Source: Candidatus Melainabacteria bacterium (GTDB lineage Bacteria > Cyanobacteriota > Vampirovibrionia > Obscuribacterales > Obscuribacteraceae). Taken from it: a DNA stretch of 64,000 bases. Location: contig QKMZ01000002.1 in NCBI GenBank assembly GCA_003242885.1, forward strand, positions 186,001 to 250,000, given 5' to 3'. The notes under the pieces are model-generated. The model worked only from the letters and a program-made list of their open reading frames with translations, ran no database searches and was not told the origin of the DNA. A program made the translations under genes and the position numbers. This document shows positions 4,888-25,597 of this stretch, piece by piece. The stretch's first letter is position 1. Every line of letters begins with the position of its first letter.

Positions 4888-6813
4888 GTGAAAGGTGTGA
4901 CGCCTGAAGTAATTTCCGAAGTTCGCCACCGAGCGAACATTGTCGACATCATCTCCGAAACAGTCGTCTTGAAGAAAGCCGGCAAGGAGTATCGCGGGCT
5001 TTGCCCGTTTCACAACGAAAAGTCAGGGTCTTTTTACGTCAATCCGGACAAAGGAATTTTTAAATGCTTTGGCTGCGGTGAAGGCGGTGATGTTTTCGCT
5101 TTTCTGCAAAAGGCGAAGGGCAACGATTTCATTGATACAGTGCGTGATCTTGCTAATCGCTATGGCATTCGATTGGTCGAAACGGTTGAGGAAAAACAGC
5201 ATTACGACCGGCGCGCGCAATTTTTCTCATTAAACGACGCCGCCTGCAACTATTTCTGTCAATTGCTGCAAGACCCTACTGATGGCGCTACTGCCAGGGC
5301 CTATCTGGAAGGGCGCGGTATCAGCGAGGAAATAATCGCTCGTTTCAAACTGGGCTTCGCGCCAAATTCTTGGGACGGTCTGCTGCGTTATTTGAACAGC
5401 ACGATGAAAGTTTCGGAAGCGACGCTTGAAGAAGCAGGGCTTGTCCGCCGCCGCGCGGAGTCGACTGGAGTGTATGACCTTTTCCGCAATCGTTTAATGG
5501 TTCCGATTATGGACGATCAGGGGCGTGTAGTGGCGTTTGGCGGACGTACTCTTGGCGACGATCAAGTGAAATATCTCAATTCCCCTGAGACCCCGATATA
5601 CGTAAAAGGGCAGCACCTTTACGGTTTTAACCTCGCAAAAGAGGCAATCAAAGCTAAGGACTCAGTTATTGTTGTCGAAGGATATTTCGATGCAATCAGT
5701 CTCCACCAGTACGGATTCACCAATTCCGTAGCGACTCTGGGAACAGCACTGACCGAGCAGCAAGCAAAAATGCTTGTTCGATACACCGATTCGAAACGTG
5801 TCTTTCTTTCATTCGATAGCGACCAGGCTGGACAGAAAGCCGTCGAACGCGGGGCTGAAGCCATCAATCAGATTGCCGAAGGCGTCGGTATCGAATTGCG
5901 AGTCATCCGCATTCCGGGCGGCAAAGATCCCGATGAGTGTTTGCGCAGCGAAGGCGGACCGGAAGCATTCGCAAGGGCAATGGATTCAGCGCCACCTTTT
6001 ATCGATCACGAACTTCGGACCGCTCTAAAAGACGCCGACCTGACGACACACACCGGGCGATTGGAGGCGGCAGGGCAGATTGTTCCTATCCTTGCGCAGA
6101 TCAAGAACCCCATGGTGCGTGGCGAGTATATTCGTTTGTTTGCAATGGAGATCGGAGCCAAAGAAGATGAGCTTGGGCATTCTGTCCGTGAACAAATGAA
6201 GCAAATCAGAAAGCCTTTCAAGCCGGACAGTTTCGGTAGCGGCGCCGCCAAAGTTATGAAAAGCCGCGGAACGGTTGGCACACCGGGCTCCGGTGGCTTG
6301 GCTGGAGTAATGGATGCAGAACGAAACTTGCTGGCGTTGTTGCTAACAAGCCGCGAAGACTATACGCAAGCATTTCCTGTTGTGATGAATATCGATTTCA
6401 ACGTGCCCGCGCATCGTACTCTCAAAGACGCATTTGAAGGTGTCGGCGACCAGTTTGCCACGGTCCAGGACCTGAGCGATCGCGTCATGGACCGTGCCGC
6501 GCCTGACAAAGCCGCTTCGTCGGCGATGGTCGACGTTATTCTCAAAGTAGAAGAGTTTCGCAAGCAGCAGCGTCCGTCCGATGTGGTTATCAAAGATTCT
6601 TTCGCCAGGCTTATTAAAGAGCGCATGGAGCTGGCCAGCCGCCAGATGCGCGCCACGCTGGCTTCAACTCTTCCTGAGGACGAGTTGATAGAGCTGCAGG
6701 GTAAAATATCCATGCTTCAGCGTCTGCAATCGAGCGATTTGCTCGCCGCTAGTTCTCTCGACGAACTCAACGAATTGACCTCAAAGATCAACGAAATAAT
6801 ACCGGTGAATTAA
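4888..6813 (+). CDS. dnaG: DNA primase DnaG
   Basis: DnaG makes the RNA primers for replication. The N-terminal CHC2 zinc finger is seen as CPFHNEKSGSF with a later CFGCGEGGD (about residues 38-67). The middle RNA-polymerase core has FRNRLMVPI and VAFGGR, then the TOPRIM metal site with EGYFDAI and FSFDSDQAG. The last 200 residues form the variable helicase-binding region. I start at the GTG at 4888, with GAGGAG ten bases upstream; an ATG at 4852 lacks such a site. The stop codon overlaps the start of the ZIP transporter gene (TAATG), so the two are probably cotranslated. No rpoD or rpsU is attached, unlike the classical macromolecular synthesis operon. Confidence 0.97.
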   Translation: MKGVTPEVISEVRHRANIVDIISETVVLKKAGKEYRGLCPFHNEKSGSFYVNPDKGIFKCFGCGEGGDVFAFLQKAKGNDFIDTVRDLANRYGIRLVETVEEKQHYDRRAQFFSLNDAACNYFCQLLQDPTDGATARAYLEGRGISEEIIARFKLGFAPNSWDGLLRYLNSTMKVSEATLEEAGLVRRRAESTGVYDLFRNRLMVPIMDDQGRVVAFGGRTLGDDQVKYLNSPETPIYVKGQHLYGFNLAKEAIKAKDSVIVVEGYFDAISLHQYGFTNSVATLGTALTEQQAKMLVRYTDSKRVFLSFDSDQAGQKAVERGAEAINQIAEGVGIELRVIRIPGGKDPDECLRSEGGPEAFARAMDSAPPFIDHELRTALKDADLTTHTGRLEAAGQIVPILAQIKNPMVRGEYIRLFAMEIGAKEDELGHSVREQMKQIRKPFKPDSFGSGAAKVMKSRGTVGTPGSGGLAGVMDAERNLLALLLTSREDYTQAFPVVMNIDFNVPAHRTLKDAFEGVGDQFATVQDLSDRVMDRAAPDKAASSAMVDVILKVEEFRKQQRPSDVVIKDSFARLIKERMELASRQMRATLASTLPEDELIELQGKISMLQRLQSSDLLAASSLDELNELTSKINEIIPVN

Positions 6814-7862
6814 TGGAAGCAGGTGCGCCAGCCAATTTGTTGATGGGTGTCATTGCCGGCGCCACCATTTTTCTGGGATTGCCTGTCGCTTTTTTGCGTG
6901 GTGTTGGTGAGAAAACCCGCGGCAGCCTGACGATGGCAGCGTGCGGTGTGCTCGTATTGCTGATTGTCGATGTCGGCTACCACATGATCGAATCGCTCGA
7001 AAGAACCGCCATGGAAGCCAATTGGCACAAGCTCGGTATCATGTCGGCAATTGTTTTTCTGGGCTTGATGTACGGACTTGTCGGTCTGGCAAAACTCGAA
7101 GAAAGGCGTGGCGCAATGAAAGGGGAAGGCGATCCGCTTTCGATAGCCACGATGATCGCAATCGGTATCGGCTTGCACAATTTCGCAGAAGGGCTGGCGA
7201 TCGGTCAGTCGTTCTCTGGCGGATCGATAAGTCTTGGCGTGGTTCTGGTTGTCGGTTTTGCCATGCACAACGCCACTGAAGGTTTTGGAATTGCCGCACC
7301 GCTTGCCGGCAAACCTGTAAGCTTTTGGCGCATTGCGCTGCTTGGATTGATCGGCGGAGGACCCACAGCCATCGGTGCGCTTATCGGCGGTTTTTTCGTC
7401 AATGAGTACGTCACACTTCTTTTCCTCACGCTCGCTGTCGGATCTTTGATTTATGTCGTGAGAGAGCTATTGCGCTTGCGTTTTGCTTCTTTGACGCCTT
7501 CAGGAGCCATGCTGGCGCTTAGCATGGGGCTTTTGTTTGGCATCTATACAGAAATTGCTGTCGAGGCAGCCACGAATTCGAGTCGTTCAACCACTGTGCA
7601 AAATGCTATCGAAATTGACTTTTCGCGCGCTACGGCGGGTAAATCAATGTCTGTGCCTGCCGGCTGCAACATTGTCATCAAAAACTCTGAATCCACGACA
7701 TTGGAGTTTGAATCAGATGGACTCTTTGCAGGCGAACTCTTTTTGAAGTCAGGAGAGCAAGCTTCCGTCTCAGTTACAAACAAGGCCGGTGAATACAAAT
7801 TGATTATCGAAGATACTGATTTTGCGCCGATCTCTGTAAAAGTAACACCGGTAAGCAAGTAA
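6813..7862 (+). CDS. ZIP-family metal transporter with C-terminal cupredoxin-like domain
   Basis: Residues 1 to about 255 are a ZIP-type carrier with around eight hydrophobic segments and both metal-site helices, GIGLHNFAEGLAIG and GFAMHNATEGFGIA. The histidine-glutamate pairs bind zinc or iron for uptake into the cytoplasm. Residues about 260-349 form an extra soluble beta-rich domain (VPAGCNIVIKNSES, then a GEYKLIIEDTDF segment) with the rhythm of a cupredoxin fold. It lacks the usual type-1 copper His/Cys/Met set; one cysteine is seen. I know of no standard ZIP protein with this tail. The ATG overlaps the dnaG stop by one base, so translation is coupled. The ZIP call is firm; the tail's fold is inferred. 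Confidence 0.85.
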   Translation: MEAGAPANLLMGVIAGATIFLGLPVAFLRGVGEKTRGSLTMAACGVLVLLIVDVGYHMIESLERTAMEANWHKLGIMSAIVFLGLMYGLVGLAKLEERRGAMKGEGDPLSIATMIAIGIGLHNFAEGLAIGQSFSGGSISLGVVLVVGFAMHNATEGFGIAAPLAGKPVSFWRIALLGLIGGGPTAIGALIGGFFVNEYVTLLFLTLAVGSLIYVVRELLRLRFASLTPSGAMLALSMGLLFGIYTEIAVEAATNSSRSTTVQNAIEIDFSRATAGKSMSVPAGCNIVIKNSESTTLEFESDGLFAGELFLKSGEQASVSVTNKAGEYKLIIEDTDFAPISVKVTPVSK

Positions 7863-22721: not shown

Positions 22722-23342
22722 ATGTGCTGGCGCCCTCACCCACTGCTGCTCACATTTGCTCTAGGCGTCGCCGTTTCTTTTCAGATGGAAGCTGTCGCAT
22801 TTAGGTATAAAACTCCGGAAAAAACAGACTCTACTTTGGCCCGGGCAAAAACGCTTCTCGCTCACGAAGATGTTGAAGAGGCTGCCAGAGAGTTTCGCAA
22901 ACTGATCAAAAGCGAACCGCAAAACTTCGAAGGCTATCTCGGAATTGCTGATTGTTCGTACCTCCAAAACGATTACCTGAAGGCTAGGGAGTCCGCCGAC
23001 AAAGCTCTCAAGCTCAATCCCAAATCCGCAGAGACTTTCAGAAGGCGCGGCAAAATCAATGAAAAGCTAAACCAGCTAGTTCCAGCTATCGAAGACTACA
23101 CGCATGCAATTGCACTTTCGCCTAACAATCATCTGTATTTGAGCGACAGGGCAGAAGTCTATAGCAAGAAAGGCGAGTATTCAAAAGCAATTGCAGACTT
23201 AGACAAGTATTTGAAACTTGTGAAGAGCCCCAACCCGAGGACGTTTTATGCACGCTCGGCCCTCTATGCGAAACTGGGAAAGAAGGCTCAAGCGGATGCG
23301 GAAAGAAAGCGCGGCGACATGATTATCGACAGGAATTATTGA
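22722..23342 (+). CDS. Exported TPR-repeat protein
   Basis: About 206 residues. The ATG at 22722 opens a basic-hydrophobic leader (WRPHPLLLTFALGVAV), so the protein is probably secreted or membrane-tethered. From about residue 40 to the end there are four to five tetratricopeptide repeats with the usual G-Y and A-P spacing, for example YLGIADCSYLQNDYLKARE and GKINEKLNQLVPAIEDY. TPRs are protein-binding scaffolds, so no catalytic role is expected. GAGG lies about 17 bases before the ATG, a loose fit; a GTG at 22668 would extend the leader and is less likely. Its 3' end overlaps the convergent EamA gene by 20 bases. The partner is unknown. Confidence 0.75.
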   Translation: MCWRPHPLLLTFALGVAVSFQMEAVAFRYKTPEKTDSTLARAKTLLAHEDVEEAAREFRKLIKSEPQNFEGYLGIADCSYLQNDYLKARESADKALKLNPKSAETFRRRGKINEKLNQLVPAIEDYTHAIALSPNNHLYLSDRAEVYSKKGEYSKAIADLDKYLKLVKSPNPRTFYARSALYAKLGKKAQADAERKRGDMIIDRNY

Positions 23343-24306
23343 TCCCTGCTCCGACTGGTTGCTTCTCACTTGTTTGGATTTGAGATTGCACAGCAGCGGA
23401 CTTATCCGGTTTCGGGCCGATTGCAAAAGCGGGCATTTTCCTTTTCACCTGCGCGATTTGAACACCGGCAATGGTCAGAACTATTCCGAGAATTTGCCAC
23501 ATTGATGCGGGTTCGTTCAATGCAACAACCGCGAGAATCAAGAGCAGGGGGCGTTGCAGAAGCGATATTATCGAGACTCGTGTAGAGCCGATAAGAGCCA
23601 TCGCACTCAGGAATGCGATGTTTGCCAGAGCAGCAGCCGAGCCGGTAATCGCTCCCACTTTGACTGCTTCAAAGGTGAGGGCCGGAGTGAAGAACATCAG
23701 TGGAATGCAATACATTGCACACAGTGGAAATTGATAAGACGAGATGGTGAGCGGTTTCATCACGCTTGTTGCTGTTTCCATATTGACTCGATAGATGCTC
23801 GACGAAACTACTGCCGCAAGCACTGCGAGAATTCCCATGGGCGTGCCGGACAAAGTTTTCACTTCCAGCATCAGGACTACTCCAAGCAGGCAAAGTGCGA
23901 ACCCGCCCCAAAACTTCGCAGTCAGCTTGTCTCGCCCGATGACCGAGTTAATGATTGCCACCAAAGCCGGTGTCGTTGTAACTAACGTCATTACCACTAC
24001 TGCAGGTACGAGAGTCAGCGACAGCAAGATCAATCCGTTTGTGCAGAACAGAAGAAATGCGAGAAACATTAGTCGCGGCAGGTTGTTCCAGCCCACCCAC
24101 TTAAAGGCACGAGTGAGCGGCAGAACAATCAGCGCAGCGCAGACGTTCTTCAAAACAAAAACTTGCAGAGGCGTAACGCCCGCTGAATAGCCGAGTTTCA
24201 CAAAGATAGGCTCTGCCGAAGCGGCGAAAATTGCCGCTGTCAGCCACAACGTGACGGCAGCTTCGCCTTTAAGAATTGAGGAATCGAACGATTTCACTCT
24301 GGTCAA
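23323..24306 (-). CDS. EamA/DMT-family transporter (possible opine exporter)
   Basis: A 327-residue membrane protein with ten hydrophobic helices in two EamA halves. The conserved proline-containing helix ends (VFVLKNVCAALIVLPL, LQRPLLLILAVVALNEP) are visible. Members export or import small metabolites such as amino acids. The gene overlaps the opine dehydrogenase gene by 38 bases, so the two are translationally coupled. In pseudopaline-type metallophore loci an EamA protein (CntI) exports the opine made by the adjacent dehydrogenase (CntM), which supports a similar role here by analogy. The likely start is the TTG at 24306, close behind GGGAG; a GTG three codons later is possible. Confidence 0.82.
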   Translation of the reverse strand: MTRVKSFDSSILKGEAAVTLWLTAAIFAASAEPIFVKLGYSAGVTPLQVFVLKNVCAALIVLPLTRAFKWVGWNNLPRLMFLAFLLFCTNGLILLSLTLVPAVVVMTLVTTTPALVAIINSVIGRDKLTAKFWGGFALCLLGVVLMLEVKTLSGTPMGILAVLAAVVSSSIYRVNMETATSVMKPLTISSYQFPLCAMYCIPLMFFTPALTFEAVKVGAITGSAAALANIAFLSAMALIGSTRVSIISLLQRPLLLILAVVALNEPASMWQILGIVLTIAGVQIAQVKRKMPAFAIGPKPDKSAAVQSQIQTSEKQPVGAGINNSCR

Positions 24307-25534
24307 AATCTCCCAACCCGAGACTTTCTAGCGTCCTGCCAGTTTTGCGGAAGTCCTCGCCGACGACGCATGTCGCAAGGCTAATCATCGAGCTCAGTAT
24401 TGGAGTCTCTTTTCCTGCCAACCGTGCCAATTGTTCAAAAGGCACAAGACTGCAGGCAACGTCTTCATAGAAGAAGCGGTGATTTAGGGTTTTTGGAGAC
24501 AGGCTATGTCTGTAATTCGGCACTGTTGTCATCGCCGAATAAAGGTCGCTCGCATCGCAACCGTAATAGCGATCGAGCAAGTCTTTCATTGGAATCAAAT
24601 CGCATCCGTATGCTTTTGCAATGGTTCGAAACTCCTCTTCCATCTGCTCAAGAATAGCGACAGTGCGGGGCGTCATGCCCTGATAGTAGAAGAGAAATTC
24701 TTCGGCGCGGTCGATTGAGTGCATGTTAGTCAATGCAATCGGCGCGTGCGCAAGCGCTCCAAAATCTGTTAGTCCTCTTTGAACTAGATTGGTAGCCGGT
24801 GTTAGACCCGGGAAGTAAGCATTAATGATTGGTGCGCAGACTTCGGTTTGGGATTTCGTGACGGATGAAAACAGCGTCCAGCGTTTGATGCCGCGTATCC
24901 AAACGCGCGAATCAGCAACTAGTCGGCATGCGAAAAGGGAGTCCGTTTCTACTATCTTGGGCAAATCGCTAAGACCCTTCGCGAGCAATTGCAATTGAAA
25001 CTCGCGAGCGCCTCCGAATTTTCCCGAAAAAAGAATTATCGTGTGCGAGCTGTTCAAGTAAGGTGCCAGGGTTTCCGCTACTTCTCGATAGGCGGTGGCG
25101 ACGGTGGCTACAAAAATAGTTTTGCAATGCTTGGCGAAGTCGCGAGGGGCTGAATAAGCACCCTTGAGTTCAAACCTGCCCAGGATGCGATCTTCGGAAT
25201 AAACGTGCCGAATGGAGTTGATGTGATCTGCTTTGATCGGGCTGCGGCTGTACATTCTTACATCGCAGCCAGCCGCTGAAAGATAGGATGCAAGCGCATG
25301 AGCGGAGTTGCCGGTACCCACGATACCGGTCGATAGAATAGATTTATCCGGATGAGCACGCAGTTCTGGAATCGCAATACCAGCAGCCGGCGATACGCAG
25401 GTCGTGCGGGTACTGAGCAACTCCGCAATTTGCCTTTGCGTTTCGGCGATTGTGGCCAAACGCGCTTCCAACGCGGAGACGTCGGATTGACTGCGGAGTT
25501 TTTGAGAAACTGCAAATGCTGAGACGTCACCCAT
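24269..25534 (-). CDS. Opine dehydrogenase-family protein
   Basis: A 421-residue protein. Residues 1-45 are a helical, possibly coiled-coil lead (VSALEARLATIAETQRQIAEL), not usual for the family. A Rossmann NAD(P) site follows: GIVGTGNSAHALASYLSAAG, then the R-S tail of the second strand. The C-terminal half matches the octopine/nopaline dehydrogenase domain, with HAPIALTN carrying the conserved histidine near the active site and RFFYEDVACSLVPFEQLARLAG. Such enzymes reductively join an amino acid to an alpha-keto acid; in CntM relatives the product is a metallophore. No nicotianamine-synthase-like CntL is in the window, so the substrate is open. The ATG at 25534 has GAGG eight bases upstream. 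Confidence 0.8.
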   Translation of the reverse strand: MGDVSAFAVSQKLRSQSDVSALEARLATIAETQRQIAELLSTRTTCVSPAAGIAIPELRAHPDKSILSTGIVGTGNSAHALASYLSAAGCDVRMYSRSPIKADHINSIRHVYSEDRILGRFELKGAYSAPRDFAKHCKTIFVATVATAYREVAETLAPYLNSSHTIILFSGKFGGAREFQLQLLAKGLSDLPKIVETDSLFACRLVADSRVWIRGIKRWTLFSSVTKSQTEVCAPIINAYFPGLTPATNLVQRGLTDFGALAHAPIALTNMHSIDRAEEFLFYYQGMTPRTVAILEQMEEEFRTIAKAYGCDLIPMKDLLDRYYGCDASDLYSAMTTVPNYRHSLSPKTLNHRFFYEDVACSLVPFEQLARLAGKETPILSSMISLATCVVGEDFRKTGRTLESLGLGDFDQSEIVRFLNS

Positions 25535-25581
25535 AAGACGCACCTCAGTTTATAAAGCTTACCGCCAGCTAATCCAGTATA

Positions 25582-25597
25582 TGTGACGCCTCTCACC
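25582..25597. promoter_or_regulatory. CRP/FNR-like site upstream of the opine dehydrogenase gene
   Basis: TGTGA-CGCCTC-TCACC differs from the CRP consensus half-site pair TGTGA-N6-TCACA in one base. It lies about 50 bases before the opine dehydrogenase ATG. A single short match of this kind can occur by chance. Confidence 0.35.

Follow-up and report, generated by a model that had tools for sequence, protein, structure and literature searches.

Conserved pairing of a CENDH-type opine dehydrogenase gene with an overlapping EamA-family transporter gene in the Obscuribacterales

The stretch of DNA analyzed here (the window, 64,000 nt) belongs to an assembly of 6.73 Mb; the host genome was placed in the Obscuribacterales (Vampirovibrionia/Melainabacteria), and its nearest relatives were Obscuribacterales/Melainabacteria genomes. 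Two genes on the minus strand were studied: ODH1 (24269–25534, ATG start, 421 aa), an opine dehydrogenase gene of the PF02317/CENDH type, and EamA1 (23323–24297, probable GTG start), which encodes an EamA-family (DMT) transporter, a probable opine exporter, and matched PF00892 at E = 7e-22. Two histidine-kinase-type genes lie on the same strand, 200 bp upstream of the module. An upstream alignment of five genus loci identified a leader at 25554–25590 (minus strand), made up of a TATACT-like box followed by GATTAGCTGGCGGTAAGCTTT, which was strongly conserved in the genus. No second copy of the leader motif was found in the genome, and a shared regulon was ruled out on that count; a riboswitch in the leader was ruled out because Rfam gave no match. 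The N-terminal lead of ODH1 (about residues 1–60; 25355–25534, minus strand) was kept within the genus only, as judged by eye, and was shorter or different in other genera. A preliminary description of this DNA had called the lead unusual and helical; AlphaFold did place a helix at residues 2–42 of this genus-conserved segment, at low confidence (pLDDT about 43–59).

The longest EamA1 open reading frame (23323–24306, minus strand) starts with TTG at 24306, with GGGAG a few bases upstream, and the 38 nt overlap with ODH1 first described from the sequence is correct for this start. A GTG nine bases inside it (24297), which shortens the overlap to 29 nt (24269–24297, minus strand), was found in 5/6 genus loci, and the sixth locus had a GTG giving 32 nt instead. 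Being the better conserved of the two across the genus, this GTG was taken as the likelier EamA1 start. The EamA reading frame offered a start codon inside or at the ODH stop codon, so that the genes could overlap, in 20/20 ODH1 pairs and in 5/5 pairs of the paralog ODH2 examined, and the commonest overlap among them was 8 nt with an ATG start. Translation of ODH1 and EamA1 is probably coupled through this overlap.

ODH1 matched Octopine_DH (PF02317) at E = 8e-37 (126.9 bits, cut-off 30), and a Rossmann N-domain was also present. The family profile, which also took in the paralogs ODH2 and ODH3, matched Arthrobacter CENDH (1BG6) over its full length (E = 1.5e-70), staphylopine dehydrogenase (CntM) in the N-domain only (E = 4.7e-11), and octopine dehydrogenase at E = 5e-9. 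For the AlphaFold model of ODH1 (mean pLDDT 88.5, pTM 0.84), the best Foldseek match was again 1BG6 (TM 0.92 on target), followed by octopine dehydrogenase, the yersinopine/pseudopaline dehydrogenases (CntM enzymes) and ketopantoate reductase, in that order. Profile and predicted structure together assign ODH1 to the octopine/CENDH-type (PF02317) opine dehydrogenases. Ketopantoate-reductase-like placement, which the preliminary description had named as an objection to itself, was checked and rejected: ODH1 lay nearer the opine dehydrogenases, with ketopantoate reductase structures ranked under CENDH, octopine dehydrogenase and CntM, and 2-dehydropantoate reductase models far below cut-off. Membership of the CntM family was also rejected (NF033600, 15.1 bits against a cut-off of 675; no match to PF10100; similarity in the N-domain only; partners missing). 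The pseudopaline-type kinship proposed at the outset was therefore not borne out, as ODH1 belongs to another Pfam family and resembles CntM only in the Rossmann domain. CntM/CntI-type systems (pseudopaline, yersinopine, staphylopine) share with the pair the opine dehydrogenase fold and an EamA gene encoded with the dehydrogenase, the latter seen at 22/25 ODH1 loci. They differ in that CntM is a PF10100 protein with a NAS gene upstream and, in most systems, import genes, whereas ODH1 is a PF02317 protein with none of these linked: no NAS gene (cntL) was seen directly upstream at the ODH1 loci examined, and no TonB/ABC import genes were recognized around ODH1. Plasmid relatives were discarded as context models: these homologs, at <30% identity, had transporter genes of other families next to them, with no EamA neighbor in the five inspected and a MATE gene following one.

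Active-site residues were mapped by alignment to 1BG6, the letters of which agree with those of ArODH in PMC10787698. The catalytic residues H263/D358 (ArODH H202/D297), the NADPH-type R97 (ArODH Arg35), the pocket residues K172/G259 (ArODH Lys111/Gly198), and Arg292 and His291 (ArODH numbering) were each present in 25/25 orthologs; loss of key residues, a further objection raised earlier, was thus checked, and the His-Asp dyad was intact throughout. In that paper, R111/G198 accompanies Asp preference and A111/N198 Phe preference in characterized opine dehydrogenases. The substitutions A111R/N198G shift the preference of ArODH to aspartate from phenylalanine, the converse substitutions in mODH-582 have the opposite effect, and Arg35 marks NADPH use (PMC10787698). 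Because the Lys111/Gly198 and Arg35 equivalents were found in 25/25 orthologs, we infer that ODH1 is an NADPH-dependent enzyme for an acidic L-amino acid, with the qualification that position 111 is Lys in the ODH1 orthologs, whereas the mutational test used Arg only. The metagenomic opine dehydrogenases (mODHs) described there resemble ODH1 in the positive charge at 111, Gly198, mostly Arg35, and NADPH preference, a likeness drawn from the described residues; they carry Arg at 111 and ODH1 Lys. CENDH/ArODH of Arthrobacter sp. 1C (N-(1-D-carboxylethyl)-L-norvaline dehydrogenase, 1BG6) shares with ODH1 the Pfam family, full-length homology at about 27% identity, and an identical catalytic His-Asp dyad and Arg292, but it has A111/N198 (Phe) in the pocket against K/G in ODH1, and Ile (NADH) at position 35 against Arg. 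CENDH/ArODH is not known to be paired with an EamA protein. Among CntM enzymes, the equivalent of SaCntM Asp150 sets the choice of keto acid, Ala corresponding to 2-oxoglutarate (PMC7438024). ODH1 orthologs had Ala (22) or Pro (3) at this position, and carrying the rule across families to suggest 2-oxoglutarate for ODH1 would be a guess by analogy.

Orthologs of ODH1 (45–88% identity) were found in 25/53 genomes of the order, in both represented families, and an EamA gene of one clade lay directly after ODH1 at 22/25 sampled loci. The ODH1–EamA1 pair is a genuine module, conserved far beyond the genus. The distance matrices of ODH1 and EamA were correlated (Mantel r = 0.91; 0/5000 permutations as high), which indicates shared inheritance and would also result from plain vertical descent. 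The EamA clade was present in 25/27 genomes with ODH1 or ODH2 vs. 5/26 without, five genomes thus having EamA alone (Fisher P = 4e-8, with genomes treated as independent and relatedness and genome incompleteness uncorrected). Most relatives are incomplete metagenome assemblies, and absences are soft. dN/dS was well below 1 for both the ODH and the EamA genes, and no conserved neighbors beyond ODH1 and EamA were found between genera. Three genomes departed from the pairing: EamA was 18 kb away in G412, on another contig in G389, and missing in G434. The G412 ODH1 region (L059, L072; G412:C13:159000-193500), with its EamA ortholog at that distance and none adjacent, contained a NicO nickel-transport gene, several CooC/CbiA-type ATPases, methyltransferases and a PALP-rhodanese fusion gene. 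In G389 (L060:6095-8248), the place of EamA after ODH1 was taken by genes for an ArsR-family regulator and a SulP transporter.

At E ≤ 1e-3, EamA1 had a single other homolog in the genome, EamA2 (L019:6359-7279, contig C1), the partner of ODH2 (L019:7272-8441, same contig), a paralog confined to the genus. In the ODH2 copies examined, the catalytic His was replaced by Tyr and the Asp by Ile or Ser; ODH2 was nonetheless under purifying selection (dN 0.10–0.27, dS 1.25–1.94; dN/dS well below 1), and the 8 nt overlap of ODH2 and EamA2 was retained. From these sequences, ODH2 is possibly a pseudoenzyme partner of the exporter. A third, divergent paralog, ODH3 (L018:7489-8694, contig C4), had Arg for the catalytic His and retained the Asp, with no EamA gene alongside; panC and a DUF2520 gene precede it, and its relatives occur in several genera of the order.

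Family, catalytic, cofactor and pocket residues, gene coupling and co-inheritance are all read from the sequences themselves, and on these, with analogy to known systems, we favor with moderate confidence a two-gene operon in which ODH1 would use NADPH to form an acidic opine for export by EamA1. An alpha-keto acid and an acidic L-amino acid of the aspartate or glutamate type would be joined by ODH1, and the imine reduced by NADPH, with His263-Asp358 as the catalytic dyad; EamA1, translated in step from the overlapping start, would carry the resulting N-(carboxyalkyl) acidic amino acid out of the cell. EamA-family proteins may import as well; we infer export because of the EamA family together with CntI-type precedents. 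The product may serve as a weak metal ligand, a public good, a signal, or a nitrogen/carbon overflow. Of the two products suggested in the preliminary description, the simpler opine is the better.

A metal role for ODH1–EamA1 is a weak, minority reading. The three RND pumps reported in the window are real, whereas the ZIP-like gene (6813–7862), 15 kb from the pair, fell just under the Pfam cut-off (34.3 vs. 35.1 bits) and the Fur boxes were unsupported: consensus palindromes occurred in the window at chance level, and no Fur/Zur-type palindrome was found upstream of ODH1. Nor did the metal context claimed for the module hold up, as the neighborhood was unconserved, the Fur/Zur site absent, and TonB and NAS genes did not co-occur with the pair. 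The metal neighborhood was set aside as evidence, its synteny being restricted to part of the genus, and RND neighbors of the pair were absent outside it. It is unlikely that the acidic opine, an iminodiacetate-type polycarboxylate, acts as a NAS-independent chelator which binds zinc, nickel or iron, or buffers excess metal. The predicted product class would have at least three carboxylates round one amine, heavy-metal-type RND pumps adjoin the pair in most genus genomes, and a NicO nickel-transport gene lies near ODH1 in one distant genome; however, the neighbors differ between genera, a methionine synthase gene replaces the pump in one genus genome, and the pair has no metal-regulator site and no co-occurring receptor. 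A pseudopaline-like metallophore encoded in trans, in which a NAS amine and a keto acid are joined by ODH1, exported by EamA1 and taken up again through a Fur-linked TonB receptor, is improbable, even though opine dehydrogenases are paired with EamA in CntM-type loci (PMC7438024). CntL/NAS and TonB genes, described as missing, were not seen near the pair and were both present elsewhere in the genome. A search for CntL-like genes recovered one unlinked NAS-family gene, nearly confined to the genus (G000:C9:2356-3348, also L017:2356-3348; 61.5 bits, above the Pfam cut-off of 27.1), with an archaeal thermonicotianamine synthase as the nearest PDB entry and no match among NCBIfam models; 5/8 genus genomes and, above cut-off, one other had such a gene. 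An amine made elsewhere, as the preliminary description offered, thus has a candidate source, but genera lacking NAS have an identical ODH1 pocket. NAS was found in 5/27 genomes with ODH1 or ODH2, and in the stretches read of five genus genomes it lay apart from ODH and exporter genes. In several genus genomes (L051–L055) its neighbor was a gene for a DUF5134-like membrane protein, and in G417 (L077) it was followed by a methyltransferase and an alanine-racemase-type gene. The one TonB receptor found in the genome is on contig C1, another contig than ODH1, where L020:5481-9742 holds a Fur-family gene, directly followed by the receptor with a TGAAAACGATTTCCA site upstream, and a His-rich MerC-family gene; this arrangement suggests metal uptake genes under Zur or Fur control. 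TonB receptors occurred in 9/27 genomes with ODH1 or ODH2 vs. 10/26 without (P = 0.78), and NAS and TonB were rejected as partners of ODH1/2 for lack of a co-occurrence association.

Opine dehydrogenases have been described as maintaining glycolytic flux under hypoxia (PMC6033044), and an exporter would suit an end product, so that the pair could be a redox valve as in marine invertebrates, with opine formation regenerating oxidized cofactor in fermentation and EamA exporting the waste opine; the Arg at ArODH position 35 in 25/25 orthologs marks NADPH acceptance, not NADH use, and makes this improbable. Much the same probability attaches to the use of opines or other N-substituted amino acids, with ODH1 working oxidatively and EamA as importer. 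Other CENDH-type genes do have importer-type neighbors (sodium symporter, AbgT, TRAP), but those loci have recognized importer families, no conserved downstream catabolic gene was found beside the pair, and CntM-linked EamA proteins have been described as efflux systems (PMC7438024). A more specific version of opine synthesis and export, in which a NAS-free opine made across the Obscuribacterales by a CENDH-type NADPH enzyme and exported by a dedicated EamA clade acts as metal ligand or shared metabolite, with the pair duplicated in one genus and ODH2, its catalytic dyad lost, turned into a non-catalytic partner or sensor of the exporter, is doubtful.

CntM homologs, the mark of opine-like zincophore clusters, have been mapped to only four phyla (PMC7438024), and no published ODH–EamA pair outside CntM was found in the literature searched. 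Under the favored reading of synthesis and export of an acidic opine, the enzyme-plus-exporter logic would recur in non-photosynthetic cyanobacteria with opine dehydrogenases of another branch, and without NAS. The pocket residues would offer a direct and cheap prediction of substrate. Provided that the product is made, secretion of opines would extend beyond what the CntM family indicates, and the pair would escape searches based on CntM or NAS.
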